Shown: one piece after another, positions 3,701 through 26,776 of the stretch
Layout of the letters: each line of letters starts with the position of its first letter
How positions within the stretch are numbered: the first letter of the stretch is position 1
Assembly: GCA_024408085.1 (NCBI GenBank)
Contig: JAKSVH010000009.1
Span: 1 to 40,360, forward strand
Direction: 5' to 3'
DNA: 40,360 nt
Origin: Bacilli bacterium
GTDB lineage: Bacteria; Bacillota_I; Bacilli_A; RFN20; CAG-826
Program-made: the position numbers and the translations under genes
Notes under the pieces: generated by a model
The model's database searches: none
What the model was told of the DNA's origin: nothing
What the model saw: the letters and a program-made list of their open reading frames with translations, nothing else

Positions 3701-3709
3701 TGGTATAAT
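3701..3709 (+). promoter_or_regulatory. Extended -10 promoter, predicted leaderless
   Basis: TGGTATAAT is a perfect extended -10 (TGnTATAAT). Only six bases separate it from the ATG at 3716, so transcription should start at or next to the A of the start codon. There is no SD. It lies directly after the T tract that ends the 5S gene. Confidence 0.75.
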
Positions 3710-3715
3710 ATAGTT

Positions 3716-4915
3716 ATGAATAAAATTAATTTTATATTCCTTAGATCTAAAGTAGGCGAAAACGAGAGATTTAAGGATGCTGAAAAGGCTAAATTCTTAG
3801 ATGAGTTAAATGCTCACGGGGACTTTAAAATCGCTCCAGATGGCCAGGAAATTTTCTTTATAGAAACAGGTGGAACTGAAGAACAATTTAGATCCATTTA
3901 TGAAGAGCATAAAGAGCCATATTTTATTCTCGCGACAGACGCGAATAACTCCCTTCCAGCAAGCCTTGAAATCGCTACTTTTTTGAAAAATAAAGGCAAG
4001 AAATTTTACTTAATTCATGGCACTGCAAGTGAAGTTAAAGAACAACTAAAAACCGAGAATTTTTCAAAAAAAGCAATAAAATCAAGTGAATTCAAAGATG
4101 CAAAAATCCTTAAAAATAAACGCTATGGAGTCGTTGGAAAACCTTCCGATTGGCTCATCGCAAGCGACACAAATTACAAAGAAGCTGAAGAAATATTAGG
4201 TGCTGTTTTAGTGGATATTTCTACTGAAGAATTTTTAGATGAAATTAAGAACGCTAAACCAGTTTTAGATCCAGTTATTTTTGAACCTCTTGTTAATGAG
4301 AAAGTTAGCAAAGAAGTTATCGATGGTGCACTCATAATTTATGCAGCACTTCGTAACATTATTATTAAACACGATTTAGCAGGCATCACTGTTCGCTGCT
4401 TTGATTTGCTTACATCTGTGAAGAACACCTCTTGTTTAGCTCTCGCAATGCTAAATAAAGATGGTTACATTGCAACATGTGAAGGTGATGTTCCTGCAAT
4501 GCTTACGATGGCACTGGTTAGAGAAATCACTCATCAGAGCGCTTTCCAAGTAAATCCATCATACATAAATATTGAAAAGAAATTTGCATATTTTGCACAT
4601 TGTACTTTGCCTCTCGACATGTGTCTTTCTTACGAGTTTGATACACACTTTGAAAGTGGAATCGGACTCGGTGTAAAAGGCCGTTTAAATTTAGGAAAAG
4701 TTACCATTTTCAAGATTAACCGAAACTTAAAAAGTTTCGAATTATTCGAAGGAAAAATTGTTGAGAACCTTAAAAAACCTAATTTATGTAGGACTCAAGT
4801 TAAGGTTGTATTTGATGAAGATATTAGCGAGATGTTTACGTCTCCGAACGGCAACCATTTGATTATTTTCTATGGTGCGCACAAGCAAGAAATTCTAGAA
4901 AAACTTACTCACTAA
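3716..4915 (+). CDS. L-fucose isomerase-related (COG2407-type) protein
   Basis: A 399-residue protein resembling the fucose/arabinose isomerase-like fold. Visible family features are GGTEEQ (52-57) and NNSLPASLEI (77-86) in the N-terminal part, then CEGD (255-258), AHC (294-296) and THFESG (310-315) in the C-terminal part. The Glu and Asp of CEGD match the metal-binding region of this family. Known members interconvert aldoses and ketoses, but the substrate cannot be read here. The start at 3716 was chosen because the longer frame runs into 5S rRNA and because the -10 sits exactly one start-site distance upstream. The gene stands alone between the rRNA operon and asp23, with no transporter or kinase next to it. 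It could feed the kinase/aldolase operon at 35126 onward, which is speculation. Confidence 0.7.
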   Translation: MNKINFIFLRSKVGENERFKDAEKAKFLDELNAHGDFKIAPDGQEIFFIETGGTEEQFRSIYEEHKEPYFILATDANNSLPASLEIATFLKNKGKKFYLIHGTASEVKEQLKTENFSKKAIKSSEFKDAKILKNKRYGVVGKPSDWLIASDTNYKEAEEILGAVLVDISTEEFLDEIKNAKPVLDPVIFEPLVNEKVSKEVIDGALIIYAALRNIIIKHDLAGITVRCFDLLTSVKNTSCLALAMLNKDGYIATCEGDVPAMLTMALVREITHQSAFQVNPSYINIEKKFAYFAHCTLPLDMCLSYEFDTHFESGIGLGVKGRLNLGKVTIFKINRNLKSFELFEGKIVENLKKPNLCRTQVKVVFDEDISEMFTSPNGNHLIIFYGAHKQEILEKLTH

Positions 4916-4929
4916 GAGTGAGTTTTTTT
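4907..4929 (+). terminator. Terminator overlapping the stop codon
   Basis: ACTCACT / AAG / AGTGAGT followed by a run of T. The TAA stop of the isomerase-like gene (4913-4915) lies at the top of the hairpin, so the stem begins inside the coding sequence. Confidence 0.88.
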
Positions 4930-4962
4930 GATTTTATATTTATATTATGATATATTATTCGC

Positions 4963-4980
4963 AAGATAATTTATTATCTT
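4963..4980 (+). repeat. 8-bp inverted repeat upstream of the asp23-family gene
   Basis: AAGATAAT / TT / ATTATCTT forms a near-perfect palindrome ending 9 bases before the ATG at 4990. It could be an operator or an mRNA hairpin. No clear SD follows, and several AT-rich -10 candidates (for example TATTAT, 4972-4977) overlap it, so I do not assign one promoter. Confidence 0.6.
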
Positions 4981-4989
4981 TTACAATAT

Positions 4990-5346
4990 ATGCCAGTTAA
5001 TAAGCAAACAGACTTAGGAAAAATAAATATTACCAATCAAGCAATAGCAACCCTTGTAGCAGACGCTTCAATGGAATGTTATGGCGTTGTTGGTTTGACT
5101 TCAAAGAACTACTCTGAGAAAGCCTCAGCTGTTTTAAAACGTGAAGATTTAGAAAAAGGCATTGTTGTCAAAAACAATAAAACAAATATTGATATTTCAG
5201 TTTATATAATCGTAGCTGCAGGAATTAAAGTTACTGAAGTTTTACGAAATGTTCAGCAAAAAGTTAAGTATGTTGTGGGCAAACAATTAGAAATTTCCGT
5301 AGGAAAAGTTAATGTTTATGTCCAAGATCTTAAGAAGGTAGACTAA
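4990..5346 (+). CDS. Asp23/Gls24 family envelope stress protein (YloU-like)
   Basis: A 118-residue protein of the Asp23/Gls24 (DUF322) family. It has the pattern 'GKINITNQAIATLVADASMEC', a GVVGLTSK segment, and an alternating-strand C-terminal half ending in VNVYVQDLKK. In Bacillota this small cytosolic protein is encoded just before the fatty acid kinase gene fakA (yloU-yloV in B. subtilis), and the same holds here: its stop overlaps the fakA start as TAATG. Family members are linked to membrane or envelope homeostasis; the exact role is not settled. No signal peptide or membrane segment is seen. Confidence 0.85.
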   Translation: MPVNKQTDLGKINITNQAIATLVADASMECYGVVGLTSKNYSEKASAVLKREDLEKGIVVKNNKTNIDISVYIIVAAGIKVTEVLRNVQQKVKYVVGKQLEISVGKVNVYVQDLKKVD

Positions 5347-6989
5347 TGAAAACTATTAGTGCAAAACTATTGAAAGAAATGCTCATTTCAGGAGCAAATA
5401 ATTTATATAATCACTATCCAGAAATCGACGCTTTAAACGTCTTCCCAGTTCCAGATGGTGACACAGGAATGAATATGAATCTTACTTTAGCAAGTGGTGC
5501 TAAAGAAATTCAAAATAGAAATGACAGCGATGTTTATTCAATCGCTTTAGCGTTCTCTAAAGGCTTACTTATGGGCGCTAGAGGAAACTCTGGTGTTATT
5601 ACTTCCCAAATCTTTAGGGGATTTGCCCAAGCTTTAGAAGGCAAGAAAACCATAAACGCCCAAGCATTCGCAGATGCATTCCAAAAAGGTGCAGAAGTTG
5701 CTTATAAAGCAGTTATGAGACCTGTTGAAGGAACAATCCTCACAGTCATCCGTGAATCTTCCAGTGCACTCGCAGGCAACGTAAACGAAGACATCGAAAA
5801 GTCTATGAAGTATCTCCTTAGCGAAGCTAAAGCTTCATTAAAACGTACTCCAGACTTACTCCCAGTCTTAAAAGAAGTTGGCGTTGTTGACTCAGGCGGT
5901 GCTGGTTTAGTTAAGATCATGGAAGGCTTACTTTCAGGCTTACAAGGCAAGTTTATTGAGAAAAAAGAAATCTCTGCAGAATCAGTTGATGCATCCGCTC
6001 AACAAGCTGTTGAATCAGATGAATTTGGTTATTGTACAGAATTCATTCTTCGTCTTGATCCAGAGAACAAAAAACCATTTATTGAAAATAGATTTAAATC
6101 AGTACTTCAAAGCCATGGTAACTCACTTGTAGTTGTCCATGATGATGACATTGTAAAAGTCCACGTTCATACACTTCATCCAGGTGCTGTATTGACCTAT
6201 GGTCAATCATTCGGTGAATTCGTCAAAATTAAAGTTGAGAATATGACCGAACAACATACAGCCTTAATGGAAGAAAAAGCATTAGCTGAAGAAGCACCAG
6301 CAGAAGAAGAAAAATTTGAACCACAAAATGATGTTGGTTTAGTCGCTGTTGCAGCAGGTAAAGGTGTTGCAGATGCATTTACAGAGCTTGGCGTTAACGA
6401 AATCATTACTGGTGGCCAAACAATGAACCCATCAATTAATGACATCGTTGCAGCCATTAAGAAAGCAAACGCAAAAACAGTCTTTGTTTTCCCAAATAAC
6501 TCAAACATTGTTATGGCAGCTCTTCAAGCAAAAGATGTTCTCCATGATGAAGTTGAAGTTATCGTTATTTCATCTAAAACAATACCTGAAGGTATTGCTG
6601 CAGTCTCACAATTCTCTCCAGACCTTTCAAATGATGAGAACGTTAAGAACATGAAAGAAGTTCTCAAAAACATTATTTCTGGTGAAATTACTTACGCTGT
6701 TAAGGATACAAATATCGGTGGTGTTGAAATCAAGAAAAACAACTACATGGCAATTATGAAAAAGAAAATTATTTGCTGTGAAACTAAATCCGATAGAGCA
6801 CTTGAAAAAATGCTCAAGAAAGCAATCAAAGAAGACAATTATCTCGCAACAATCTTTGTTGGAGAATCTGTCTCAGATAAAGTTCTAAAAGAACTTAAAG
6901 AAGAACTTCCAGAAACCTATCCAAATATCGAATTCGATATTAGACGTGGTGATCAGCCAGTTTACGACTTCCTAGTCGGTATTGAATAA
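5346..6989 (+). CDS. fakA: Fatty acid kinase catalytic subunit FakA (YloV/DAK2 family)
   Basis: A 547-residue protein. The N-terminal DhaL/DAK2-like nucleotide-binding domain shows NVFPVPDGDTGMNMN (31-45), whose aspartates bind Mg-ATP, and GARGNSGV (77-84). An Ala/Glu-rich linker near 307-327 leads to a C-terminal domain ending in 'RRGDQPVYDFLVGIE'. With a FakB fatty-acid-binding partner, FakA phosphorylates fatty acids to acyl-phosphate. No fakB is seen in the window. The gene follows the Asp23 protein by a 1-nt overlap and precedes plsX, whose product also handles acyl-phosphate. It ends before a strong terminator. Confidence 0.93.
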   Translation: MKTISAKLLKEMLISGANNLYNHYPEIDALNVFPVPDGDTGMNMNLTLASGAKEIQNRNDSDVYSIALAFSKGLLMGARGNSGVITSQIFRGFAQALEGKKTINAQAFADAFQKGAEVAYKAVMRPVEGTILTVIRESSSALAGNVNEDIEKSMKYLLSEAKASLKRTPDLLPVLKEVGVVDSGGAGLVKIMEGLLSGLQGKFIEKKEISAESVDASAQQAVESDEFGYCTEFILRLDPENKKPFIENRFKSVLQSHGNSLVVVHDDDIVKVHVHTLHPGAVLTYGQSFGEFVKIKVENMTEQHTALMEEKALAEEAPAEEEKFEPQNDVGLVAVAAGKGVADAFTELGVNEIITGGQTMNPSINDIVAAIKKANAKTVFVFPNNSNIVMAALQAKDVLHDEVEVIVISSKTIPEGIAAVSQFSPDLSNDENVKNMKEVLKNIISGEITYAVKDTNIGGVEIKKNNYMAIMKKKIICCETKSDRALEKMLKKAIKEDNYLATIFVGESVSDKVLKELKEELPETYPNIEFDIRRGDQPVYDFLVGIE

Positions 6990-7000
6990 AAACAAAAATG

Positions 7001-7026
7001 AGCCATCCTTAGGATGGCTTTTTTAT
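7001..7026 (+). terminator. Rho-independent terminator after fakA
   Basis: AGCCATCC / TTA / GGATGGCT followed by TTTTTTATT. An 8-bp GC-containing stem with a U tract. Confidence 0.93.
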
Positions 7027-7095
7027 TGCGTATTTTCAAACAAAGTTATCAAGAAGTAAACATAATATGTTTTTATAGTGATATTTATTTTTGTG

Positions 7096-7115
7096 TGCTA
7101 CAATACGTGCGGAGG
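7096..7115 (+). promoter_or_regulatory. plsX promoter and SD
   Basis: TGCTACAAT (7096-7104) is an extended -10. The predicted start near 7111 falls on the first G of the SD GGAGG (7111-7115), which is 7 nt before the ATG at 7123. The 5' leader would be about 12 nt and would begin with the SD itself. Confidence 0.7.
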
Positions 7116-7122
7116 TTTTATT

Positions 7123-8091
7123 ATGGTCAAACTAGTTATTGATATGATGGGCGGCGACAATGGTTCACAAGCAACCGTTGGTGGCGTAAAGAAGTTTTTA
7201 GCATCGCACAAAGATTGCGAAATCATTGCAGTTGGTGATGAAAACGAACTTGATTCAATTAGAGACATTGTTAAAATCATCCCTTCACAAAGCGTACTCC
7301 CAATGGAATGTGGAGTTTTGCAAGCTATGAGACAAAAAGATTCAAGTGTCTATAAAGCTGTTAGTGCTGTTAACGAAGAGAAAGCAGATGGAGTTATTTC
7401 TGCCGGATCTACTGGTGCGTTCCTTTCGTTAGCCACATTAATCACTAAAAAGATTGAAGGTGTTGAAAGACCAGCTTTAATAAGTCCGTTTCCTACTAAA
7501 GTAGCAGGAAAATATGCAGTCTTATTAGATATTGGTGCTTCAAGTGAAAACTCACCTGAAGATTTAAAACAATTTGCTGTCATGGGCCAAGCTTACTGCA
7601 AAGCAGTATTTGGAAATGAAAACCCAAAAACCTATCTTATTTGTAACGGTACAGAAGAAGGTAAAGGCAATGACCTTTCAAAGAGAACTTACGCTCTTCT
7701 AAAAGATGATCCAAACTTCAAAGGTTATATTGAAGGACGCCATGTTTTAGATGGCGATGCTGATGTAGTAGTTTTTGATGGATTTACTGGAAACGTATTC
7801 CTCAAGACTGCTGAAGGTGTTGCTAAGATGATGGGCGGAATGATGAAAGATGCCTTTAAACACAGTTTATGTACCAAAATTGGCTACTTATTTGCAAGAC
7901 GTGGGTTCAAACCAATGCTTAAAACCATGGACTATAAGAAAGTTGGTGGCGCATTACTCGTCGGTGTGAACACCGTTGCAGTCAAAGCACATGGTAATTC
8001 TGATCCAGATTCGTTTGCAGCTTCTATTGAAGTTGCATACAAACTTTGCAAAAACAATGTAGTTAGCAAGATCAAAGAAAATTTAAAATGA
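7123..8091 (+). CDS. plsX: Phosphate acyltransferase PlsX
   Basis: A 322-residue PlsX starting VKLVIDMMGGDNG (MGGD motif, residues 9-12), with 'SAGSTGAFLSLA' and 'VVFDGFTGNVFLKTAEG' typical of the family. It interconverts acyl-ACP and acyl-phosphate, the acyl donor for PlsY in phosphatidic acid synthesis. The start was chosen at 7123 because it has GGAGG at good spacing; an upstream in-frame start at 7078 would lie across the promoter. It heads the run plsX-rnc-ftsY-ylxM-ffh. The fabD, fabG and acpP genes that separate plsX from rnc in B. subtilis are missing. Its stop overlaps the rnc start (ATGA). Confidence 0.95.
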   Translation: MVKLVIDMMGGDNGSQATVGGVKKFLASHKDCEIIAVGDENELDSIRDIVKIIPSQSVLPMECGVLQAMRQKDSSVYKAVSAVNEEKADGVISAGSTGAFLSLATLITKKIEGVERPALISPFPTKVAGKYAVLLDIGASSENSPEDLKQFAVMGQAYCKAVFGNENPKTYLICNGTEEGKGNDLSKRTYALLKDDPNFKGYIEGRHVLDGDADVVVFDGFTGNVFLKTAEGVAKMMGGMMKDAFKHSLCTKIGYLFARRGFKPMLKTMDYKKVGGALLVGVNTVAVKAHGNSDPDSFAASIEVAYKLCKNNVVSKIKENLK

Positions 8092-11625: not shown

Positions 11626-11627
11626 AA

Positions 11628-11653
11628 AAAAAGCTCCGCGATGGAGCTTTTAT
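11628..11653. terminator. Bidirectional terminator between ffh and trmD
   Basis: AAAAGCTCC / loop / GGAGCTTTT with an A run on one side and T-rich sequence on the other, so it can end transcripts from both strands. The trmD stop codon (11650-11652) lies inside it. Confidence 0.88.
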
Positions 11654-12926: not shown

Positions 12927-12928
12927 GC

Positions 12929-13189: not shown

Positions 13190-13464
13190 TATTTTGCTTC
13201 CTTTTTAGCTTTGTTGTACTTTTCCATTAAGCCCTTCTTTGTAAAGAGAGTCTTAATTGAATCAGATGGAGTAGCACCTTTCATGAGCCATTTTAATGCT
13301 AATTCTTCATTAATTTCTGCTGCTTCTTCTGGTTTTGCTGGATCATAGAATCCAATTTGTTCAACATAACGTCCGTCTCTTGCGCTTCTTGAATCTGCAA
13401 CAACGACACGGTAGATGGCGTCTTTATGACGACCGATTCTGGTAAGTCTAATTTTAACTGACAT
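13189..13464 (-). CDS. rpsP: 30S ribosomal protein S16
   Basis: A 91-residue S16 starting [40 protein letters not shown], the standard N-terminus. It heads the minus-strand unit, with an AAAGGAG SD and its own consensus promoter at 13495-13522. In B. subtilis rpsP points the same way as ffh and rplS; here it is reversed. Confidence 0.97.
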
Positions 13465-13494
13465 AGTAGTAATCTCCTTTTTTTACCGCCATCT

Positions 13495-13522: not shown

Positions 13523-13540
13523 GTAAAAATACTTAACACC

Positions 13541-13569
13541 TTGTATTTGAATACATATTTGATTAAGAT
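13541..13569 (+). promoter_or_regulatory. SDR gene promoter, predicted leaderless
   Basis: TTGTAT (13541-13546), a 17-bp spacer, TAAGAT (13564-13569), then 7 bases to the ATG at 13577. There is no SD. The -10 is weaker than consensus, so confidence is moderate. Confidence 0.55.
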
Positions 13570-13576
13570 ATTAGCC

Positions 13577-14458
13577 ATGATTAAGTATCAGAAATGGATT
13601 TCAAAACATTGTGAAAATTCGTTAGAAAACAAGACCATTTTTATCACAGGCGGAAATTCCGGAATTGGGTTTGAAGCAACACGTAATTTTGTTTATCTTG
13701 GAGCATCAATTATTTGGGGTTGTAGAAACCTTGAAAAAGCTGAAGTAGCAAGAGCAAAAATTGTTGAAGAGTTTGCTAAAGCAAATATTTCAATAGTTCA
13801 AGTTGATTTAGCAGACACAAATTCAATTAAAAAATGTGTTGAAAATTTAGTTAAAAATAATACCAAAATTGATGTCATTTACAACAACGCTGGAGTGTTC
13901 AGAATTCCACAGGGAAAAACTAAACAAAATTTTGATTTAGTTATCGGCACAAACTTGGTCGGAACATATGTTTTGAACAAATTGCTTTTGGAGCATTATA
14001 AAAATTCTCAATTCATTTTTACAACCAGTATTACTGCAATGTTTGCAAAATTGAATCTCAAAGATCCGTTTTTCGAAAAGACCAGATATGGAAACTTCAA
14101 AGCTTATGGTAGATCGAAGTTTGGTATTAACCAACTTGTGTCATATTGGAATGAAAATTGTGTAGCAAATTTTGCACTTATTCACCCAGGTATTACGTAT
14201 ACTCCGCTCATCAAAAAAGCCTACAAATCCCGTATATTTTGCGCATTAGCTGCTGGTTTTATGAAATTATTCTTCCATACAGCCGAGAAAGCATCACTAA
14301 CAGCATTGTTAGCTGTTGAAGAGAATAAAAAGTTTGCTTATTATGGACCTCGAGGTCCGTTTGCAATTAGCGGTTATCCAAAGAAAAGAAGGCTCATGAA
14401 GAGGTACTTAAAAGGTAATAAAAATACCTTTGATTTCCTTGAGAGTCTGAAATATTAA
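13577..14458 (+). CDS. Short-chain dehydrogenase/reductase, unknown substrate
   Basis: A 293-residue classical-type SDR. It shows the NAD(P)-binding TGGNSGIG (24-31), NNAG (103-106), a catalytic Ser near 151, and YGRSK with Tyr177/Lys181. The closest overall look is the retinol-dehydrogenase/WWOX-like group, often membrane-associated; residues 218-234 are hydrophobic. The substrate is not predictable. The start at 13577 is preferred; a longer frame opening with TTG at 13541 would start on the -35 box. It sits between the inverted rpsP block and rplS, a place where B. subtilis has no such gene, and looks like an insertion. Confidence 0.8.
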   Translation: MIKYQKWISKHCENSLENKTIFITGGNSGIGFEATRNFVYLGASIIWGCRNLEKAEVARAKIVEEFAKANISIVQVDLADTNSIKKCVENLVKNNTKIDVIYNNAGVFRIPQGKTKQNFDLVIGTNLVGTYVLNKLLLEHYKNSQFIFTTSITAMFAKLNLKDPFFEKTRYGNFKAYGRSKFGINQLVSYWNENCVANFALIHPGITYTPLIKKAYKSRIFCALAAGFMKLFFHTAEKASLTALLAVEENKKFAYYGPRGPFAISGYPKKRRLMKRYLKGNKNTFDFLESLKY

Positions 14459-14469
14459 TTAATTATTTG

Positions 14470-14498: not shown

Positions 14499-14504
14499 CT
14501 TGTT

Positions 14505-14594
14505 TGCGAGTTTTATAACTCGATTAGGGCGTCCCGCTTTCAAGTGATGATATGAACGTACCGAACAATTACTAGAAAAGAAGGAGGAAAAGAC
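14505..14594 (+). promoter_or_regulatory. Structured 5' leader of rplS (possible L19 leader)
   Basis: The leader starts with the hairpin CGAGTT / TTAT / AACTCG (14507-14522), then GGGCGTCCCGC and further short complementarity, and ends with the SD AAGGAGG (14581-14587), 7 nt before the ATG. Bacillota rplS leaders include a known autoregulatory family (L19 leader in Rfam). Position and size fit, but I could not test the consensus. Confidence 0.5.
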
Positions 14595-14942
14595 ATGAAC
14601 ACAAATATCGTTAACGAAGTTACTGCACGTCAAATTAAGAAAGATGTCCCAGAATTCAAAGCTGGTGATACAGTCTCAGTTTCCGTCAGAATTACTGAAA
14701 ATAACAAATCACGTATCCAAGTCTTCCAAGGCGTCGTAATCCAACGCCGCGGCTCCGGTGTCAGCGAAACCTTCACTGTTAGAAAAATTTCTTCAGGTGT
14801 CGGTGTTGAAAGAACTTTCCCAATCAACTCACCAGCAGTTGCTGCTATCAAAGTTGAAAAACACGGTAAAGTTCGCAGAAGTAGAATCTTCTACTTACGT
14901 AATCGTTCTGGCAAAGCCGCTCGTATTAAAGAAGTTCTTTAA
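14595..14942 (+). CDS. rplS: 50S ribosomal protein L19
   Basis: A 115-residue L19. Typical motifs are 'VPEFKAGDTVSVSVRI', 'RIQVFQGVVIQRRGSG', 'ETFTVRKISSGVGVERTFP' and the C-terminal 'KVRRSRIFYLRNRSGKAARIKE'. It has a strong SD AAGGAGG. In B. subtilis it follows trmD; here trmD, rimM, khpA and rpsP are inverted and an SDR gene intervenes. Transcribed alone from its own promoter to its own terminator. Confidence 0.97.
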   Translation: MNTNIVNEVTARQIKKDVPEFKAGDTVSVSVRITENNKSRIQVFQGVVIQRRGSGVSETFTVRKISSGVGVERTFPINSPAVAAIKVEKHGKVRRSRIFYLRNRSGKAARIKEVL

Positions 14943-15016: not shown

Positions 15017-15045
15017 TTGTAGTCTAAACTAGATGTGCGTATAAT
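15017..15045 (+). promoter_or_regulatory. lepB promoter, predicted leaderless
   Basis: TTGTAG (15017-15022), a 17-bp spacer, TATAAT (15040-15045), then 6 bases (AATTGC) and the ATG at 15052. The predicted start coincides with the start codon. No SD is present. Confidence 0.78.
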
Positions 15046-15051
15046 AATTGC

Positions 15052-15765
15052 ATGGACGAAAACGTAAGTAATGAAAAACCGATTAAAAATCGAAAAGGAT
15101 TAAGCGTCTTTTTCAATATTTTAATTACGCTTTTAAGCATCATTGCCCTCACTATTGCGGGTGTTTTGATCTACCAAAAACGTTATTTGTCGCCTTTCTG
15201 GGTTAATGGGCAATCAATGTATCCAACTTTAAATAAGTATGCTCTTGATCCAAACGGCCAACTCTACAAAGAAAATGGTTCAACAACATTGGCTGGCTCC
15301 AAAAATGTTGATTATGGTGTCATGGACAAGCATGAACGCGCACTGAAGAAAATTAAAAGATTTGACATTGTTGTTTGCAAGTACAGCAAAGATGACGCAA
15401 GCGACAAGATTAAAAGAGTCGTTGGTTTACCAGGTGAAACAATTAAGTTTGGCCAAGGAAACATAAACGGAACGTTGTTTGTTAAAAACGGAAACGAATT
15501 TTATGCAACCGAACAACCAGTTGATAATGAATATGTTGTTGCAGGAAATTATCCAGTTAATGAAATTACTTTAGGCAATGACGAATACTATGTTTTAGGT
15601 GACAACAGAGCCCATTCAAGTGATAGCCGCACCAATGGAGCAATTAAGTATGAATGGCTTATTGGTAAGGTTGTTTGCGTTTGTGCACATTGCGAAGTTC
15701 GTCAAGCAGCTGATGGTAGTCTAGAGCCATTTAATATTAAACACTTTATACCGAGATTTTTATGA
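15052..15765 (+). CDS. lepB: Signal peptidase I
   Basis: A 237-residue type I signal peptidase. One N-terminal membrane segment (about 17-40) is followed by the catalytic Ser55 in GQSMYPTL, Lys121 in KIKRVVGLPGE, and the conserved GDNRAHSSDSR near 183-193. It removes signal peptides on the outer face of the membrane. Compared with short Bacillota homologues it has an insert of about 35 residues after the Ser box (near 65-98). It heads lepB-rbgA-rnhB and overlaps rbgA by 4 nt. Confidence 0.95.
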   Translation: MDENVSNEKPIKNRKGLSVFFNILITLLSIIALTIAGVLIYQKRYLSPFWVNGQSMYPTLNKYALDPNGQLYKENGSTTLAGSKNVDYGVMDKHERALKKIKRFDIVVCKYSKDDASDKIKRVVGLPGETIKFGQGNINGTLFVKNGNEFYATEQPVDNEYVVAGNYPVNEITLGNDEYYVLGDNRAHSSDSRTNGAIKYEWLIGKVVCVCAHCEVRQAADGSLEPFNIKHFIPRFL

Positions 15766-17235: not shown

Positions 17236-17243
17236 AAAAAAAC

Positions 17244-17271: not shown

Positions 17272-17319
17272 CAGCGAAAATGCCAAATCTACCTGAAATA
17301 AGTAGTAGAGGTATTTTTT

Positions 17320-18111: not shown

Positions 18112-18178
18112 AAAAAAGTTCAAATTTTGTTAAAGAATATAACTATATCTTTAATATATATAAAAGGAAAATTAGGCT

Positions 18179-18207
18179 TTGACTTATGTGTTTTAAATGC
18201 CTATATT
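18179..18207 (+). promoter_or_regulatory. topA promoter, nearly leaderless
   Basis: TTGACT (18179-18184), a 17-bp spacer, TATATT (18202-18207), then 10 bases to the ATG at 18218. The predicted leader is 3-4 nt and there is no SD. Confidence 0.72.
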
Positions 18208-18217
18208 ATATGGACTT

Positions 18218-20281
18218 ATGAAGTTAGTTATTGTTGAATCTCCAAATAAATGTCACACCATCTCCCGTTACTTAGGAGAAGGTTATCAAGTTCTTGCTAC
18301 AGTCGGACATTTACGTGACCTTTCCACTAGTGGAAAAGGTGGTTTTGGAGTTGACATTGAGAATGATTTTAAGCCTACATACGTTGTTTCTAGTTCAAAA
18401 AGATCAACAGTCTATGAATTAAAAGAAGCTGCTCGTAAGGCTGAAGAAATCTATCTCGCAACCGACCCTGACCGTGAAGGAGAAGCTATCGCCTGGCATC
18501 TTACCCAAATTTTAGGTTTGGACCCAAAAACAACAAAGCGTTTAGAGTTCCACGAAATTACAAGAGTTTCAATCAATGCTGCTATCAAAAAACCAAGAGT
18601 AATTGATATGAATCTTGTGGAATCACAAGAAACAAGAAGAATTATGGATAGAATTATTGGATTTAGACTTTCCAATATTATCCAAAAAAAGATTAAATCC
18701 CCATCCGCTGGTAGAGTTCAATCTGCAACACTTAAATTAATTTGTGATCATGACCAAGAAATTGCTGATTTCAAACCAGAACCTTATTGGACATTATCAT
18801 TAGAATTAAAGAAAAATAATGCAAAAATCGCTGCAAATTTCGCATCTTTTGGTGATGTGAAGAAAATTGAAGACGAAAAGACCAATGCTGAAATCGTTTC
18901 TAAACTTAGCGGAAATGCAAAAGTTGTCTCTATTAAAAAGTCAGTTAGAACAACTGAATCAAAACCAGCATTTACAACCTCAACTCTTCAACAAGAAGCA
19001 TTTAATACATACAAATTTTCAACAAAGAAGACTTCTAGTCTTGCTCAACAATTATATGAAGGTGTCCAAATTAAAGGTGAACACACAGGTTTAATCACAT
19101 ACATCCGTACAGATTCAACTTATTTATCAGATACATTTGTTGAAAGAGCAGAAGCATTTATTGCAAAGAAATTTGGTCCAGAATACTGTGGTAAACGTAA
19201 AGTTGTCGCAGTTGCTGGTGCCCAAAACGCACACGAAGCTATTAGACCAACTTCAAATCATACAACTCCTGAATCAGTTCGCGCATACCTTACGCCTGAT
19301 CAATATAAGTTATATAAATTGATTTATGAGAGAGCCGTTGGCTCACTCATGGCTCCTAAAAAAGAGTCAGTACAAGTCGTAACTTTTGATGTGAATGGAG
19401 TTACATTTAAAGCTGAAGCAGCACAAGTTGTTTTTGATGGTTATACAAAACTTGGTTCAAGTGAAAAAGAAGAAACTTACCACTTCCCAGCATTAACTGA
19501 AGGTGAAGAAGTAAAGATTAACAAAGTTAATAATGAACAAAAAATAACCGAAGCTCCAGCAGCTTACACTGAAGCTAAGATTGTTAAACTTATGGAAGAC
19601 AAAAAGATTGGTCGTCCATCAACTTACGCTTCAACAATTGCAACATTACTTAAAAGAGAATACGTTGCTTCTAAATCTGGCTCACTAACTTCTACAGAAG
19701 TTGGCCAAAGAACAACAATTGTTCTCCATAAATATTTCCCAGATTTTGTTGATGTTAAATACACAGCTCAAATGGAAGAAAAACTTGACCAAATCCAAGA
19801 AGGCGAAGTTTCAAGAACCGAAGCATTAACTGAGTTCTACTATCCATTTATTAAGTCAGTTGAAGATGCATCTGCAAAAATGTACAAAGATGACGACGAA
19901 CCAACTGGACGTAATTGTCCAATCTGTGGAGCACCTCTTGTTTACAAGAAATCCAAATACGGAAATTTCATTGGCTGTTCAAACTTCCCAACCTGTAAAT
20001 ACAGAGAAAAAGAGGAAGAAGAACTCGAATACACAGGAGAAATGTGTCCAAAATGCGGCAAGCCTCTCGTCTATAGAGTTGGTAAAAAGAATAAAAAATT
20101 CATTGCATGTTCTGGTTATCCAGATTGTGATTATGTAAAGAAGGAAGAATCCGAGCTCGAAGTAGTAAAGAAATGTCCTGAATGTGGTGGAGATCTCGTT
20201 GTGAGAGGTCGTGGAAAGAAGAAATTCTTAGGTTGTACAAACTATCCAAAATGTCATCACATTGAAAAATTAGACAATTAA
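18218..20281 (+). CDS. topA: DNA topoisomerase I
   Basis: A 687-residue type IA topoisomerase. The Toprim domain starts LVIVESPNKCHTI, keeping the Glu and Lys equivalent to E. coli E9 and K13, and has TDPDREGEAIAWH (82-94). The active-site Tyr295 is in TGLITYIRTDS. Three C-terminal four-cysteine zinc motifs follow: CPICG...CSNFPTC, CPKCG...CSGYPDC, CPECG...CTNYPKC. It relaxes negative supercoils. I placed the start at 18218; a longer frame from 18197 would cross the -10 box. The usual AKAK after ESP is NKCH here, a mild variation. Confidence 0.96.
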   Translation: MKLVIVESPNKCHTISRYLGEGYQVLATVGHLRDLSTSGKGGFGVDIENDFKPTYVVSSSKRSTVYELKEAARKAEEIYLATDPDREGEAIAWHLTQILGLDPKTTKRLEFHEITRVSINAAIKKPRVIDMNLVESQETRRIMDRIIGFRLSNIIQKKIKSPSAGRVQSATLKLICDHDQEIADFKPEPYWTLSLELKKNNAKIAANFASFGDVKKIEDEKTNAEIVSKLSGNAKVVSIKKSVRTTESKPAFTTSTLQQEAFNTYKFSTKKTSSLAQQLYEGVQIKGEHTGLITYIRTDSTYLSDTFVERAEAFIAKKFGPEYCGKRKVVAVAGAQNAHEAIRPTSNHTTPESVRAYLTPDQYKLYKLIYERAVGSLMAPKKESVQVVTFDVNGVTFKAEAAQVVFDGYTKLGSSEKEETYHFPALTEGEEVKINKVNNEQKITEAPAAYTEAKIVKLMEDKKIGRPSTYASTIATLLKREYVASKSGSLTSTEVGQRTTIVLHKYFPDFVDVKYTAQMEEKLDQIQEGEVSRTEALTEFYYPFIKSVEDASAKMYKDDDEPTGRNCPICGAPLVYKKSKYGNFIGCSNFPTCKYREKEEEELEYTGEMCPKCGKPLVYRVGKKNKKFIACSGYPDCDYVKKEESELEVVKKCPECGGDLVVRGRGKKKFLGCTNYPKCHHIEKLDN

Positions 20282-20304
20282 GTAAGCCAAGTGCTTACTT
20301 TTTT
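20280..20304 (+). terminator. topA terminator overlapping its stop codon
   Basis: AAGTAAGC / CAAGT / GCTTACTT followed by TTTT. The stem starts within the topA TAA (20279-20281), and the last T of the tract is the first base of the next promoter's TGn element. Confidence 0.88.
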
Positions 20305-20312
20305 GTTATAAT
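20304..20312 (+). promoter_or_regulatory. trmFO extended -10 promoter, predicted leaderless
   Basis: TGTTATAAT is a full extended -10, followed by AATTCGC and the ATG at 20320. The predicted start falls on or next to the ATG. No SD. Confidence 0.78.
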
Positions 20313-20319
20313 AATTCGC

Positions 20320-21609
20320 ATGAAGAAAATTAACATAGTTGGTGGTGGACTTGCAGGCGCAGAAGCCTGTTACTTTTTTCTAAAAAGAAACTATGAAGTC
20401 CACCTCTATGAGAAACGTCCAAAAGTAATGACTCCAGCACATGTTACTGGTAATTTTGGAGAACTTGTTTGTTCTAATTCTTTGAAGTCTAGCAAGCTTG
20501 ATAATGCATGCGGATTGCTCAAGGAAGAAATGCGCCACATGGACTCACTAACTATGAAAGTTGCAGCTGAAACAAGTGTTCCATCTGGTAATGCTTTAAG
20601 CGTAGATCGTGAGGCTTTTTCAGCAAAAATCACGCAAATTCTCAAGGATTTTCCAAATTTAGTTATTCATGAAGAAGATGTTGAAGACTTCTTGGAAGGG
20701 CCTACTATTATCGCAACAGGCCCGCTTACAAGTGATGTGCTCGCAAAGAAAATTTCTGAAACAATTGGTCAAGATTCTTTGTTCTTTTTTGATGCCTCTG
20801 CACCGATTGTGTTGAAGGATACAATCGACATGAATATCGCCTACAAAAAATCACGTTATGATCAAGGCGATGATAGCTACATTAACTGTCCATTTTCGGA
20901 AGAACAATATGATAAATTCTATGACGAACTTATTCATGCAGAAGTGGCAATGATTCACGACTTTGATAAAAACTATTTTGAAGGTTGTATGCCTATTGAA
21001 GTAATGGCGAAACGCGGAAAAGAAACTTTAAGATTTGGGCCAATGAAACCAAAAGGTCTTCAAGTTCCAACAAGAGAAAAATTCCATGCTGTTATTCAAT
21101 TAAGACAAGACAATCTTAATGGAGATTTATATAACATTGTTGGTTTCCAAACTAACCTAACCTATCCAGAACAAAAGCGTGTTTTCAGAATGATTCCAGG
21201 TTTAGAACATGCTGAATTCGTGCGCTACGGACTTATGCATCGTAACACTTATGTGTGTTCGCCAATTGCATTAAATGCAGACTTTTCTTTAAAAAAGAAA
21301 GATAATACATTTTTAGCAGGTCAATTAATTGGAGTTGAAGGCTATGTAGAGTCTGCTGCTATGGGTATTTTGGCGGCGGTTTTCGCATTCCAAAGAATGG
21401 AAAATGTCGAAATACAAAAACCGCCATTAGAGAGCATAATTGGTTCTTTATATAACTATGTTATCAATGGTAATCCAGAGACTTTCCAACCAATGAATGC
21501 TAACTTCGGAATTTTATATAATTCAAACAAACATAATCGTGAAGAATCAATAAATAAATCTCTGGATTTAATCGATAAGTATTGGAGCAAGATTAATGAA
21601 AGAGATTGA
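20320..21609 (+). CDS. trmFO: Methylenetetrahydrofolate-tRNA-(uracil-54)-methyltransferase TrmFO
   Basis: A 429-residue folate- and FAD-dependent tRNA methyltransferase. The FAD-binding GGGLAGAEA is at 8-16, followed by 'ELVCSNSLKSSKLDNACGLLKEEMR', 'FGPMKPKGL' and 'GQLIGVEGYVESAAMG', all typical of TrmFO/Gid. It makes m5U54 in the T-loop; all three tRNAs in this window carry TTC at 53-55 of that loop. It precedes xerC with a 14-nt overlap, as in B. subtilis. Confidence 0.95.
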   Translation: MKKINIVGGGLAGAEACYFFLKRNYEVHLYEKRPKVMTPAHVTGNFGELVCSNSLKSSKLDNACGLLKEEMRHMDSLTMKVAAETSVPSGNALSVDREAFSAKITQILKDFPNLVIHEEDVEDFLEGPTIIATGPLTSDVLAKKISETIGQDSLFFFDASAPIVLKDTIDMNIAYKKSRYDQGDDSYINCPFSEEQYDKFYDELIHAEVAMIHDFDKNYFEGCMPIEVMAKRGKETLRFGPMKPKGLQVPTREKFHAVIQLRQDNLNGDLYNIVGFQTNLTYPEQKRVFRMIPGLEHAEFVRYGLMHRNTYVCSPIALNADFSLKKKDNTFLAGQLIGVEGYVESAAMGILAAVFAFQRMENVEIQKPPLESIIGSLYNYVINGNPETFQPMNANFGILYNSNKHNREESINKSLDLIDKYWSKINERD

Positions 21610-22507: not shown

Positions 22508-22519
22508 TACTATTTTTGC

Positions 22520-22547
22520 ATAGTTTATAAAAACTATTTGTTTTATT
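22520..22547 (+). terminator. Weak terminator after xerC
   Basis: ATAGTTT / ATAA / AAACTAT followed by TTGTTTTATT. The stem is AT-rich. Its U tract overlaps the -35 of the rpsB promoter. Confidence 0.55.
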
Positions 22548-22566
22548 AATGCTGGAGTGTTAGAAT
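22538..22566 (+). promoter_or_regulatory. rpsB promoter
   Basis: TTGTTT (22538-22543), a 17-bp spacer ending in TGT, TAGAAT (22561-22566). An extended -10 with a -35. The predicted start is near 22573. Confidence 0.75.
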
Positions 22567-22573
22567 ACTAACG

Positions 22574-22702
22574 CTCTTTTTCTTTAAGAGAAAGAGAAAT
22601 ACACACATCATGAATTCAATTTCCGAGTCCCGTGACCACGGGGTCGAAAACGGGGGAGATTGTTCGAAGTGATGGAGGCTAAAACGAATGGAGGCCAAAA
22701 AT
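22574..22702 (+). promoter_or_regulatory. Long structured 5' leader of rpsB (candidate S2 autoregulatory leader)
   Basis: About 125 nt of non-coding leader. A 10-bp hairpin closes 22574-22596 (CTCTTTTTCT pairs with AGAGAAAGAG around TTA). A second hairpin CCCGTG / AC / CACGGG is at 22629-22642, and an alternative stem GACC / ACGG / GGTC at 22634-22645 is mutually exclusive with it. Two SD-like GGAGG sites follow (22674-22678 and 22690-22694). The structure suggests control by S2, but no named family can be assigned by eye. Confidence 0.5.
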
Positions 22703-23788
22703 ATGGCAGAAGAAAAGAAAGTCGAAGCACCAGTTGCTGATGCTGAGAGCGTCATGGAAATGGTAATGCATGACGAAAACGCACCAATCATTACCGTCAG
22801 AAAATTACTCGAAGGTGGAGTCCACTTCGGACATCACACCAGAAAATGGAATCCAAAAATGGGCAAGTACATCTACGGTGCTCGTAATGGAATCTACTTA
22901 ATTGACTTAGTCAAATCCGCAGCATGCATTTCAGAAGCATATGTTGCATTAAAGAAAATCGTTGAAGAAAACGGTAAAGTCTTATTTGTTGGTATTAAAC
23001 CACAAGCAAAAGAACTCGTCGAAGCACAAGCAGTTCGTTCAGGTTCATTCTACATCACCAATCGTTGGTTAGGTGGTACATTAACAAACTTCAAGACAAT
23101 TCAATCAAGAATTCGTCGTTTAAAAGAACTCGAAACAATGGAAATTGATGGTTCATTCGAACGTCTTCCAAAGAAAGAAGTTGCTCTTTTAAAGAAAGAA
23201 GCTGAAAAACTTGCCAAGAACCTTGGTGGTATTAAAGAAATGAGAAAGATTCCAAACGCAGTTGTCGTTTGTGATCCAATGCTCGAACACAACGCAGTTG
23301 CGGAAGCAAAGAAACTCGGAATCCCAGTATTCGGTATCTGTGATACCAACTCCGATCCAGACAGAGTTGACTTTGTTATCCCAGGAAACGACGATGCACT
23401 TCGTTCACTCAAGGTTTTAGTTACAGTCTTAGCAGACGCAGTTGTCGAAGCAAAAGGTGGTATCACCGAAGTTGCATATACTAAAGATGAATTAGAAGAA
23501 GCAACAATGAAAGACGCTGTCCGTTTAGCAGACAAAGAAAATGCTGAAAGAATTGCAGCAATTCGTAAAGCTCGTGCTGAAAAGCAAGAAAGATTCGAAA
23601 AAGCTCAACAATTCAGAAAACAAAGAGAAGAAGCAAAAGCTGCTAAAGCAGATGCTCCAAAAGCAGAAGCACCAGCAGAAGAAGCAAAAGCTGAAGTAAA
23701 AGAAGAAAAACCAGCTGAAGAAAAGAAAGCCCCAGCAAAGAAAGCTCCAGCAAAAAAGGCTCCAGCAAAGAAAGCTGAGGAAAAATAA
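22703..23788 (+). CDS. rpsB: 30S ribosomal protein S2 with N- and C-terminal extensions
   Basis: A 361-residue S2; the family is usually 240-260. The S2 core begins near residue 26 with ITVRKLLEGGVHFGHHTRKWNPKM and includes NRWLGGTLTNFKTI and GIPVFGICDTNSDPDRVDFVIPGNDDA. It is preceded by an acidic extension and followed by a charged segment (about 265-310) and an Ala/Lys/Glu/Pro-rich tail ending in AKKAPAKKAEEK. I chose the ATG at 22703 with GGAGG at 8 nt; the ATG at 22688 is also possible, with its own GGAGG at 9 nt. It heads rpsB-tsf-pyrH-frr. Confidence 0.94.
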   Translation: MAEEKKVEAPVADAESVMEMVMHDENAPIITVRKLLEGGVHFGHHTRKWNPKMGKYIYGARNGIYLIDLVKSAACISEAYVALKKIVEENGKVLFVGIKPQAKELVEAQAVRSGSFYITNRWLGGTLTNFKTIQSRIRRLKELETMEIDGSFERLPKKEVALLKKEAEKLAKNLGGIKEMRKIPNAVVVCDPMLEHNAVAEAKKLGIPVFGICDTNSDPDRVDFVIPGNDDALRSLKVLVTVLADAVVEAKGGITEVAYTKDELEEATMKDAVRLADKENAERIAAIRKARAEKQERFEKAQQFRKQREEAKAAKADAPKAEAPAEEAKAEVKEEKPAEEKKAPAKKAPAKKAPAKKAEEK

Positions 23789-23790
23789 TT

Positions 23791-24657: not shown

Positions 24658-24672
24658 TTTGAAAGGAGCCTT

Positions 24673-25383
24673 ATGTATTCAAGAATCTTAGTTAAACTAT
24701 CTGGCGAATCACTTGCTGGAAAAGGTAAAGAAGGAATCATTGAAAGTGAGGCTCTTTTAAATTCCGCAAAAGTAGTCAAAGCAATCGCTGATAAAGGCAT
24801 TCAAGTTACAGTCGTTATTGGTGCAGGCAATATTTGCCGCGGTGCTATTATCGAAAAAACTGGAATTGACCGTGTCAGCGGTGACTACATGGGAATGCTC
24901 GGTACAGTTATTAACTGTATCGCATTAAAAGAAGCTTTAGTGAAGCTTGGACAAAAGGCTGTTGTTTTATCAGCAGTTGATGTCACATTTTGCGAAACTT
25001 ACTCCCCAGAACTTGCGGATAAGTATTTAAAAGAAAATTATGTTGTAATGTTTGGTGCCGGCACTGGTAAACCATTCTTCACAACAGATACATGCGCAAC
25101 ACTCCGCGCTATTGAAGTTAAAGCAAATGCTATTTTAATAGCAAAGAACGGTGTTGATGGCATTTATTCAGATGATCCAAGATTCAACAAAGACGCTAAA
25201 CTTTATAAAGAAATCAAGTGCTCTGAAATTATTGCAAAAGATCTCAAAGTAATGGATTTAACAGCAGTCGAAATGTTGAAAGACAAAGACATTGATGTTC
25301 GTGTATTTAACGCTTCAAAACCTGAAAATTTCCTTAAGGCAGCAAGCGGTGAAGACATCGGAACAACAATCAAGAAAGGATAA
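24673..25383 (+). CDS. pyrH: UMP kinase
   Basis: A 236-residue bacterial UMP kinase of the amino-acid-kinase fold. It shows RILVKLSGESLAGKGKEGI at the N-terminus, VVIGAGNICRGA, DYMGMLGTVINCIAL and 'NGVDGIYSDDPRFN'. It phosphorylates UMP to UDP. An AAAGGAG SD sits before the ATG. Gene order tsf-pyrH-frr is the standard one. Confidence 0.96.
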   Translation: MYSRILVKLSGESLAGKGKEGIIESEALLNSAKVVKAIADKGIQVTVVIGAGNICRGAIIEKTGIDRVSGDYMGMLGTVINCIALKEALVKLGQKAVVLSAVDVTFCETYSPELADKYLKENYVVMFGAGTGKPFFTTDTCATLRAIEVKANAILIAKNGVDGIYSDDPRFNKDAKLYKEIKCSEIIAKDLKVMDLTAVEMLKDKDIDVRVFNASKPENFLKAASGEDIGTTIKKG

Positions 25384-25387
25384 GAAA

Positions 25388-25933
25388 ATGGACCCAATCG
25401 CATTAGAAGCAAAGGAAAGCATGGCTAAGACAATTCAAGCTTTCCAAAATGAACTTACAACACTTAGAACTGGAAGAGCCACACCAGCAATGTTAGATAG
25501 AGTTGAGTGTGAATATTACGGAGATAAAATTGCAGTCAATCAAATCTCCTCAATCTCATCTCCAGAACCACGTCAATTACTCGTTAAACCTTATGATAAA
25601 GGCGATGTTAAAAACATCTGTGCTGCTATAGCAGCAGCTAACCTTGGAGTTAACCCAATTAACGAAGGTGATTGCATCAGAATTACAATCGCACCTCTAA
25701 CAGAGGAAACACGTCGTGACTTAGTTAAAAAAGCTAAGGCAATGAGCGAAGATAGTAAGGTTGCAATTCGTAACATCAGACGTGACTTCATTGATTTAGT
25801 TAAAGCAAGTGATGAAATGACTGAAGATCTCCAAAAACGTGTTCAAGAAGAAATTGAAAACGTTACAAAAGATTCAGTTGCTGAAATCGATTCAATCCTT
25901 GCCAAAAAAGAATCAGAAATTATGGCAATATAA
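25388..25933 (+). CDS. frr: Ribosome recycling factor
   Basis: A 181-residue RRF. Typical motifs are ELTTLRTGRATPAMLDRV, 'ISSPEPRQLLVKPYD' and 'LTEETRRDLVKKAKAMSEDSKVAIRNIRRD'. With EF-G it splits post-termination ribosomes. The true start is the ATG at 25388, four bases after the pyrH stop, with an AAAGGA SD; a longer open frame from 25292 overlaps pyrH and is not real. Confidence 0.96.
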   Translation: MDPIALEAKESMAKTIQAFQNELTTLRTGRATPAMLDRVECEYYGDKIAVNQISSISSPEPRQLLVKPYDKGDVKNICAAIAAANLGVNPINEGDCIRITIAPLTEETRRDLVKKAKAMSEDSKVAIRNIRRDFIDLVKASDEMTEDLQKRVQEEIENVTKDSVAEIDSILAKKESEIMAI

Positions 25934-25962
25934 GAGAGGCTAATGCTTCTCTTTTCTTTTTA
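25932..25962 (+). terminator. Terminator after frr, overlapping its stop codon
   Basis: AAGAGAGGC / TAAT / GCTTCTCTT followed by TTCTTTTTATT. The stem begins with the last two bases of the frr TAA. One G-U pair in the stem. Confidence 0.88.
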
Positions 25963-25996
25963 TTAAAGAATTCATCACATTATTTTGCTTATACGC

Positions 25997-26026
25997 TTGC
26001 AAGATTTTCGTGTGCCTGTGTATAAT
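25997..26026 (+). promoter_or_regulatory. uppS promoter, nearly leaderless
   Basis: TTGCAA (25997-26002), an 18-bp spacer, TATAAT (26021-26026), then 9 bases to the ATG at 26036. The predicted leader is 0-3 nt. No SD. Confidence 0.76.
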
Positions 26027-26035
26027 ATACGCACT

Positions 26036-26776
26036 ATGGCAAACGAGATTACTTTAAATAAACCAATCAACCACGTTGCAATCATTATGGATGGCAACGG
26101 TAGATGGGCTAAAAAACGCGGTCTTCCAAGGACAATGGGTCATAAGGAAGCCTGCAATAGAATCGTTGAAATTTTCGACTACTGTGTTGACTATGACATT
26201 AAAGTAGTGTCGTTTTATGCTTTCTCAACCGAAAACTGGAAAAGACCAGCTTCCGAAATTAAGTTCTTGTTCCAATACTTAGAACTATTTTTTAAACGTG
26301 AAATCGATAAAATCATGAAAGATGGAACAAGGATTATTGTCTCTGGTGATATTTCAAAATTGCCGGCAAAAACCAGGAAAACTACTGAAGAAGCCATTGA
26401 AAGAACAAAGAATAACAAGAATTACGTAATGAATATTTGTCTTAACTATGGTGGTAAGGAAGAACTCACTAGAGCTGCAAGACTAATCGCAGAAGAAGTG
26501 AAGGGTGGCAAACTTAAAGTTGAAGATATCGACGAACAAGTTATGGAAAATCATCTTTACACAGCAGGACTCCCGAATGTTGATTTAATGATTAGGACAT
26601 CAGGAGAAGTAAGAACATCAAATTTCTTACCATGGCAAATAGCTTATGCAGAATATGTGTTCACACCGGTGTTATTTCCAGATTTTAAAAGGAAAGAATT
26701 TGTTGATTGTTTAATTGAATTTAATAAACGTAATAGAAGATATGGAGGGCTAGACAATGAAAAAGATAACAAATGA
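26036..26776 (+). CDS. uppS: Undecaprenyl-diphosphate synthase (cis-prenyltransferase)
   Basis: A 246-residue UppS. Asp19 in IIMDGNGRWAKKRGLP, 'MGHKEACNRIVE', 'SFYAFSTENWKRP' and 'LMIRTSGEVRTSNFLPWQIAYAE' are the family blocks. It builds the C55 lipid carrier for cell-wall and surface polymers, which implies the organism still makes at least one undecaprenyl-linked polymer. The start is the ATG at 26036; a longer frame from 25985 would run through the promoter. It overlaps cdsA by 20 nt. Confidence 0.95.
   Translation: MANEITLNKPINHVAIIMDGNGRWAKKRGLPRTMGHKEACNRIVEIFDYCVDYDIKVVSFYAFSTENWKRPASEIKFLFQYLELFFKREIDKIMKDGTRIIVSGDISKLPAKTRKTTEEAIERTKNNKNYVMNICLNYGGKEELTRAARLIAEEVKGGKLKVEDIDEQVMENHLYTAGLPNVDLMIRTSGEVRTSNFLPWQIAYAEYVFTPVLFPDFKRKEFVDCLIEFNKRNRRYGGLDNEKDNK

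Follow-up and report, generated by a model that had tools for sequence, protein, structure and literature searches.

Promoters adjoining start codons and predicted leaderless mRNAs in a genome of the uncultured Bacilli family CAG-826

The window analysed here, a stretch of 40,360 nucleotides (nt), is one complete contig (JAKSVH010000009.1) of a 1.15-Mb Bacilli genome (37 contigs, 93% complete), and it contains six transcription units whose first gene has a promoter -10 box almost touching its start codon. Considering the genome-wide spacing of such boxes, the anatomy of the promoters, their conservation and the contrast between lineages, it is very probable that these six units are served by housekeeping-sigma promoters fused to start codons and produce leaderless or nearly leaderless mRNAs, as had been proposed in a sequence-only reading of the window. 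The TrmFO protein encoded in the window is 93% identical to that of Candidatus Fiminaster equi, its nearest named relative. Candidatus Fiminaster has been assigned to the order RFN20, family CAG-826 (PMC8957277), a family that is predicted to lack both peptidoglycan and spores (PMC10868615); a taxonomy listing puts it under Bacilli incertae sedis. By inference, we place the window genome in the genus Candidatus Fiminaster, family CAG-826, order RFN20. The six promoters are the following:

3701..3718, plus strand: isomerase-like gene (399 amino acids, aa); TGG-TATAAT with the -10 at 3704-3709, a 6-nt gap (ATAGTT) and ATG at 3716.
13541..13579, plus strand: SDR-like gene; TTGTAT at 13541-13546, TAAGAT at 13564-13569, 7 nt, ATG at 13577; the weakest of the six.
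15017..15054, plus strand: lepB; TTGTAG at 15017-15022, TATAAT at 15040-15045, 6 nt, ATG at 15052.
18179..18220, plus strand: topA; TTGACT at 18179-18184, TATATT at 18202-18207, 10 nt, ATG at 18218.
20282..20322, plus strand: trmFO; hairpin and T-run at about 20282-20304, TGT-TATAAT at 20304-20312, 7 nt, ATG at 20320.
25997..26038, plus strand: uppS; TTGCAA at 25997-26002, TATAAT at 26021-26026, 9 nt, ATG at 26036.

The anatomy first described for these units holds in most respects. The gaps from the -10 to the ATG are, as claimed, 6, 7, 6, 10, 7 and 9 nt; two genes (ATGs at 3716 and 20320) have a TGn extended -10, and four have a -35 at 17-18 nt, namely topA (TTGACT, 5/6 to TTGACA), uppS (TTGCAA, 4/6), lepB (TTGTAG, 3/6) and SDR (TTGTAT, 3/6). 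Inspection of the sequence revealed no Shine-Dalgarno (SD) sequence before any of the six. Nevertheless, only five of the promoters are convincing, as the SDR box, TAAGAT, is weak and no relatives of that gene were found among the loci searched. Likewise, the names of lepB, topA, trmFO and uppS are supported by matches over NCBIfam cut-offs, whereas the isomerase-like and SDR genes match families below curated cut-offs. The isomerase-like gene lies immediately 3′ of the 5S rRNA gene, and no homologue start was found for it in the loci of relatives that were searched. For topA, with its TTGACT-17-TATATT arrangement and an alternative -10 (TATTAT) ending 8 nt from the ATG, a “nearly leaderless” message with a predicted leader of 3-4 nt is more likely. 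Between topA and trmFO, the topA stop, a terminator-like hairpin with its T-run, and the extended -10 and ATG of trmFO are packed into a 38-nt gap.

By contrast, the clear SDs reported for plsX, rplS, rpsB, pyrH and the FGGY kinase gene were all confirmed, and rpsP likewise bears one. These contrasting genes and the anti-SD are located as follows:

7111..7125, plus strand: plsX; GGAGG SD, 7 nt, ATG at 7123.
14583..14597, plus strand: rplS; GGAGG SD, ATG at 14595.
13462..13477, minus strand: rpsP; GGAG SD, ATG at 13464.
22674..22705, plus strand: rpsB; GGAGG at 22674-22678 before ATG 22688, and a second GGAGG at 22690-22694 before ATG 22703.
257..261, plus strand: intact anti-SD, CCTCC, at the 3′ end of 16S rRNA.

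In rpsB, the second ATG (22703) is probably the start and the leftmost one is not; in 9 of 11 relatives from the genus, the closest start codon aligns with ATG 22703 or lies near it.

Evidence also comes from the distance between -10 boxes and start codons outside the window. In a sample of 534 kb (46% of the genome), 422 genes were called with a home-made start caller that uses coding potential, SD and start-codon preference and does not consult -10 boxes. Among these genes, 247 are heads of transcription units, 123 with an SD and 124 without it. Before the SD-less heads, the exact hexamer TATAAT ends 6, 7, 8, 9 and 10 nt upstream of the start in 9, 10, 2, 3 and 3 cases, respectively, while each position from 0 to 5 and from 11 to 15 holds 0-1. 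The genome-wide excess at 6-10 nt that the earlier reading anticipated is thus present (27 of 124 heads vs 4 at the 11 neighbouring positions); dinucleotide shuffling gave a mean of 1.3 and a maximum of 6 in 300 shuffles. When any -10-like hexamer ending 5-10 nt before the start codon is accepted (heads with such a box and no SD are hereafter called leaderless-like), 46 of the 124 SD-less heads have it, compared with a mean of 10.3 in six control windows of equal size and with 9.0 +/- 2.7 (maximum 18) in 300 shuffles. Operon-internal genes have a near -10 at about the control frequency (7/175 vs 5.2), and before SD heads TATAAT is scattered from about 17 nt upstream outward, as in ordinary leaders. 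An earlier and smaller sample of the same genome (276 kb, 217 open reading frames, ORFs) had given 6, 6, 2, 2 and 1 exact boxes at 6, 7, 8, 9 and 10 nt before in-frame ATGs, with none at 0-5 or 11-17 nt and no spacing peak before out-of-frame ATGs. Additionally, a scan of the whole genome independent of gene calls (TGNTATAATN{0,20}ATG) found 33 sites, with 3 at 6 nt, 8 at 7 nt and 0 at 8 nt, so that the predicted peak at 6-8 nt is also observed in this way (11 vs 4.7 expected, p 0.005). Similar ORF-free scans (TGNTATAATN{6,7}ATG) in sets of 117 and 120 genomes lay, by eye, above a backward-read control in most genomes, also outside RFN20; as this control destroys the promoter word itself, gene-anchored counts were used instead. 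After subtraction of the background, the strict box marks about 36 of 247 heads (15%) as leaderless, and roughly 15-19% of unit heads are predicted to be leaderless in this genome.

The start-fused architecture predicted for lepB, trmFO, topA and uppS is conserved among related genomes (the two sets of genus genomes used in this work overlap, and their counts are not summed). For uppS, 24 genomes of the genus, including this one, were searched, and exact TATAAT was found at 7-11 nt in 21 of the 22 with a readable locus, the exception having GATAAT at 8 nt; all 22 have a pyrimidine at -1. In lepB, TATAAT lies at exactly 6 nt in 9/9 genus relatives, and in trmFO the T-run, the TATAAT and a spacing of 6-7 nt are kept in 10/10 (L032-L039, L043, L047). 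For topA, a weaker -10-like hexamer is present at 8-11 nt in 10/10 genus relatives, all of which also have, by eye, TTTGAC upstream. The SD-bearing leaders are equally stable, as rplS keeps its SD in 8/8 genus relatives and rpsP its GGAG in 8/8. Outside the family, the box is absent from all eight uppS loci, and a G-rich SD-type leader was seen by eye in the same 8/8; for topA, a purine-rich SD-type sequence occurs in 4/4 more distant relatives, two of them without assigned kinship.

These observations bear on two alternatives. According to the first, the start codons are misplaced, and the boxes belong to ordinary promoters from which translation begins at a downstream codon behind an SD. It is true that the gene starts were derived from ORFs and a home-made caller, and that rpsB illustrates how the leftmost ATG can be wrong. 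However, misplaced starts would not produce a peak bounded at 6 nt and restricted to in-frame ATGs, and the ATG and a near-constant spacing are kept across the genus at lepB, trmFO, uppS and topA. Residue 1 also aligns with orthologues outside the genus at topA, Sir2, MutS2 and, in one of two cases, trmFO; at trmFO and prfA, the start lies within one residue of the outside orthologues. Consequently, we regard misplacement as very unlikely. The second alternative is that of dual promoters, in which the box near the start would give only a minor leaderless transcript and most protein would be made from longer, SD-less or read-through messages. Some units do lie close behind another gene, so that read-through is possible, for instance at trmFO, 38 nt after topA, but a terminator-like hairpin and T-run precede trmFO. 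Furthermore, box and spacing remain constant among relatives while the letters between box and ATG vary, which argues against a minor role of the box and makes this explanation improbable, although not negligibly so.

It could also be supposed that the TATAAT-like motif is an AT-rich translation signal and not a promoter, the true transcription start lying farther upstream. In fact, AT-rich signals are reported to precede SD-less genes in other phyla (PMC5397173), and the failure to find bS1 in this genome makes unusual initiation plausible. The anatomy of the boxes, examined in 63 exact boxes from family CAG-826 aligned for -35 and -1 analysis, argues otherwise. A TTGACA-like hexamer (at least 4 of 6 positions) occurs at a 17-nt spacer in 12 of the 63, against a mean of 3.2 over 26 other spacers (the next highest are 24 and 29 nt, with 9 each), and TTG is found at 16-18 nt in 15/63, against about 1.2 per spacer elsewhere. 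A pyrimidine occupies -1 in 55/63 leaderless-like genes but in 194/272 SD heads (p 0.0099), and C in 22/63 vs 28/272; such a pyrimidine excess is expected if the A of the ATG is +1. The TGn extension, by comparison, is no commoner in leaderless-like boxes (12/63) than in boxes of SD heads (9/38). The -35 spacing and the pyrimidine at -1 argue against a pure translation signal, as do the near-absence of the boxes before operon-internal genes and the invariant 6 nt at lepB, and we consequently give this possibility very little weight. With -35 elements at 17 +/- 1 nt and a position at unit heads, the boxes look like real sigma-70/sigma-A promoters.

In the start-fused promoters that we favour, RNA polymerase positioned at the -10 would begin transcription 6-10 nt downstream, that is, as the spacing suggests, at the A of the ATG or a few nt from it, which would leave no room for an SD in the mRNA. 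Initiation by 70S ribosomes or with the assistance of IF2 is established for leaderless mRNAs in other organisms. The 5′-terminal AUG of the present messages would be read in one of these ways, and the leaderless class would coexist with an ordinary SD system that has an intact anti-SD.

Several observations weigh against this interpretation or reduce its precision. Leadered messages may also be produced from promoters farther upstream. About 10 of the 46 leaderless-like heads are expected by chance. None of the 123 SD heads in the 534-kb sample has a box at 5-10 nt, but this contrast is partly built in, as the SD fills that position and its absence is the selection criterion for the genome-wide leaderless-like set; in ten other genomes of the genus and in other genera, 3/55 and 5/88 SD heads, respectively, do have a near box. 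The caller lets in doubtful ORFs (e.g., one of 62 aa) and missed the start of lepB, for which it chose 15217; since lepB was missed through a wrong start choice, real leaderless genes are also lost from the count. In addition, 78 of the 247 heads have neither an SD nor a near -10. Finally, orthologues within the family differ in leader type. Reciprocal-best orthologues of the leaderless-like genes of this genome, with the leader type of each read, comprise 4 leaderless-like, 2 SD, 6 neither and 1 internal in the genus, and 4 leaderless-like, 2 SD, 2 neither and 2 internal in other CAG-826 genera; two of the within-family “neither” orthologues carry TATAAT at 11 nt.

Outside the family the result is different, since orthologues in other RFN20 families are 12 SD heads, 2 leaderless-like heads and 5 internal genes, and those in other orders are 1 SD head and 2 internal genes. 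The switch from SD-led to leaderless is therefore clear when compared with the outside, whereas within the family either it varies or the start calling obscures it. Given that sister families have SD leaders at these genes, the loss of leaders would be placed in or near CAG-826, and it most likely proceeded promoter by promoter, within the family or on its stem branch. The lepB, topA, trmFO and uppS genes aside, matches over NCBIfam cut-offs confirm the identity of several leaderless-like genes, among them prfA, mutS2, ispG, ispH, fmt, def, a Sir2 deacylase and TnpB. Two near-identical genes of this genome (L076:2702, whose product is TnpB by NCBIfam, and L164:11988) have a hairpin-like repeat running into a TATAAT 6 nt before the ATG; thus, a mobile element also seems to use the putative leaderless format. 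Outside the family, a lepB-like gene (L183) has TATAAT 7 nt before a GTG, although its start is uncertain.

The extent of the habit across the lineage is given below as leaderless-like heads over all heads, with the control-window mean in brackets:

This genome: 46/247 (10.3).
Ten other genomes of the genus: 29/120 (5.7).
Ten other CAG-826 genera, sum: 40/206 (10.0).
Genus g23, 2/17 (1.0), and genus g25, 1/13 (0.3): little signal.
Other RFN20 families: f2, 6/48 (1.3); f3, 4/64 (1.7); f4, 1/69 (0.3); f5, 10/80 (3.3).
Other RFN20 families, continued: f6-f7, 0/6; f8, 4/41 (0.8).
Other RFN20 families, sum: 25/308 (7.4).
Other orders of the class: 3/170 (3.2).

The leaderless-like share amounts to about 19% of heads in CAG-826, where the habit is present in most sampled genera, and to about 8% in the rest of RFN20, where it is rarer but still above control; in 17 genomes of other orders that use code 11, sampled at 20 kb each, no excess was detectable. 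In parallel, SD-less heads represent 41-64% of all heads within CAG-826 and 17-35% outside. A single 20-kb stretch from family f2 (L105, genome G032) has three convincing start-fused TATAAT boxes, and leaderless genes are consequently not confined to CAG-826. In three stretches for which code 4 gives the better reading, and which are therefore probably Mycoplasma-like, 5 exact boxes were counted at 5-10 nt among 45 ORFs, a number too small for dating the origin.

As for what separates SD-led from SD-less heads, a two-class rule had been suggested, in which ribosomal-protein units keep SDs and single-copy housekeeping heads are leaderless. Its first half stands. Ribosomal-protein and elongation-factor genes were found by BLAST, blind to leader type, with 39 E. 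coli and 3 window queries. Among the 30 such genes in the sample of this genome, 15/15 heads and 14/15 internal genes have an SD and none is leaderless-like (all ribosomal heads SD vs leaderless-like heads, Fisher p 0.012). In CAG-826 overall, their heads comprise 21 with SD, 1 leaderless-like and 2 with neither, of which other genera of the family contribute 5, 1 (rplA) and 2, respectively. The second half fails, as many housekeeping heads carry SDs (secA, dnaA, dnaN, valS, leuS, asnS, serS, infB, pnp, efp, greA and a gyrase-type B subunit). In its place we put a division of the heads that follows codon adaptation, computed relative to the ribosomal and elongation-factor genes, which were themselves excluded from the test. 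In this genome, leaderless-like heads (n=45) have a median of 0.590 and SD heads (n=100) one of 0.676 (p 2.8e-4); in the ten other genus genomes, the values are 0.535 (n=29) and 0.599 (n=50; p 5.8e-4). The values of heads lacking both an SD and a near -10 are no higher than those of the leaderless-like heads (0.561 in this genome, 0.529 in the genus), so that the contrast is one of SD vs no SD and not of leaderless heads vs all others. We infer that the split reflects expression level, with genes of high codon adaptation tending to keep their SD leaders. Genome compaction was rejected as the driver, since same-strand upstream gaps do not differ (medians of 124.5 nt for leaderless-like heads, n=16, and 124 nt for SD heads, n=65).

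Divergent placement is more frequent among leaderless-like heads than among SD heads in this genome (22:16 vs 19:65; p 3e-4), in other CAG-826 genera (p 0.003) and in other families (p 0.006), but not significantly so in the ten genus genomes. Moreover, the 78 heads with neither signal, which have low codon adaptation, make up about a third of the heads in this genome. They show no excess of TANNNT at 6-8 nt, so that an extension to weaker boxes fails; they may be miscalled starts or a third initiation class. In an aminotransferase-like gene of the window (35100-35126), a GGAGG lies about 20 nt upstream of the ATG, beyond the normal SD distance. Elsewhere in the window, an ORF at the contig end (40076-40348, minus strand) contains a tandem peptide repeat, DLVHQFRLL, and may be a repeat region broken where the assembly ends.

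Regarding the translation machinery, this genome has both IF3 and bS21; in the sets of genomes searched, IF3 was found in 117 of 120 and bS21 in 39 of 41. With a Firmicutes-type bS1 model, whose cut-off was exceeded by 8 of 14 control rings, nothing over the cut-off was found in 41 genomes, own and other families included; each of the weaker matches listed is one stretch in an ORF of at least 474 aa. The S1-domain matches in this genome are PNPase, a 127-aa ORF and a weak one in a 565-aa ORF; we take the last two to be a YabR-like protein and NusA, respectively. The loss of S1 with retention of S21 has been tied to leaderless mRNAs in a study of Mollicutes (PMC4014445). As a specific cause, however, the loss of bS1 was rejected here, because bS1 is undetected in other families too and its absence does not track the trait.

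Genes with start-fused leaderless promoters have long been known. A survey published in 2011 predicted them in 207 of the 953 bacterial genomes covered. Firmicutes accounted for 56 of these (out of 209 examined), with a concentration in Lactobacillales and Mycoplasma; five Mycoplasma genomes averaged 18.3% according to Zheng et al., whose denominator may differ from the present one (PMC3160421). According to more recent gene finding, 21.6% of bacterial species are predicted to use leaderless transcription (PMC9581028, citing Lomsadze 2018). As described for Lactobacillales and Mycoplasma, the present genes have a TATAAT-type box, with a TG extension in several low-GC genomes, a message predicted to start at the AUG, and SD genes alongside (PMC3160421); the order is nevertheless different, and here the same genes can be traced from SD-led sister families to a leaderless family. 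In Deinococcus-Thermus, where the arrangement was tested with reporters, a -10 is reported to adjoin about 30% of ORFs (PMC12340547). The placement of the -10 beside the start codon is shared, but the present host is low in GC and belongs to an uncultured lineage known here from sequence alone. As in Mycobacterium and other bacteria, leaderless and SD genes are mixed in one genome; in Mycobacterium the transcription start sites have reportedly been mapped (PMC3898074), whereas here they are predicted. In the open-access literature searched, none of the matches listed mentions leaderless mRNAs for CAG-826, RFN20 or UBA3207, and Fiminaster is named only in its taxonomic description; within that literature, the earlier statement that the trait had not been described for this lineage stands. 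The lineage is consequently newly documented, and what it adds is an informative boundary.

We hold with middling confidence that, in CAG-826, many genes of low codon adaptation gave up SD-led for leaderless expression one by one, whereas those with strong expression retained their SDs, so that leader type would be a lineage-specific, expression-graded translation setting in an order in which no bS1 was found, with neighbouring families preserving the before and after states. The gain or loss of SD leaders is usually inferred across phyla, while sister families of one order allow the tracing of single promoters, as in topA, trmFO, uppS, prfA and Sir2, which have an SD leader outside the family and a start-fused promoter inside it. 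In practice, starts in these uncultured gut bacteria may be wrongly assigned by gene finders that rely on SDs. Finally, the lineage makes it possible to ask, in a concrete reporter test, why genes with strong expression retain their SDs.

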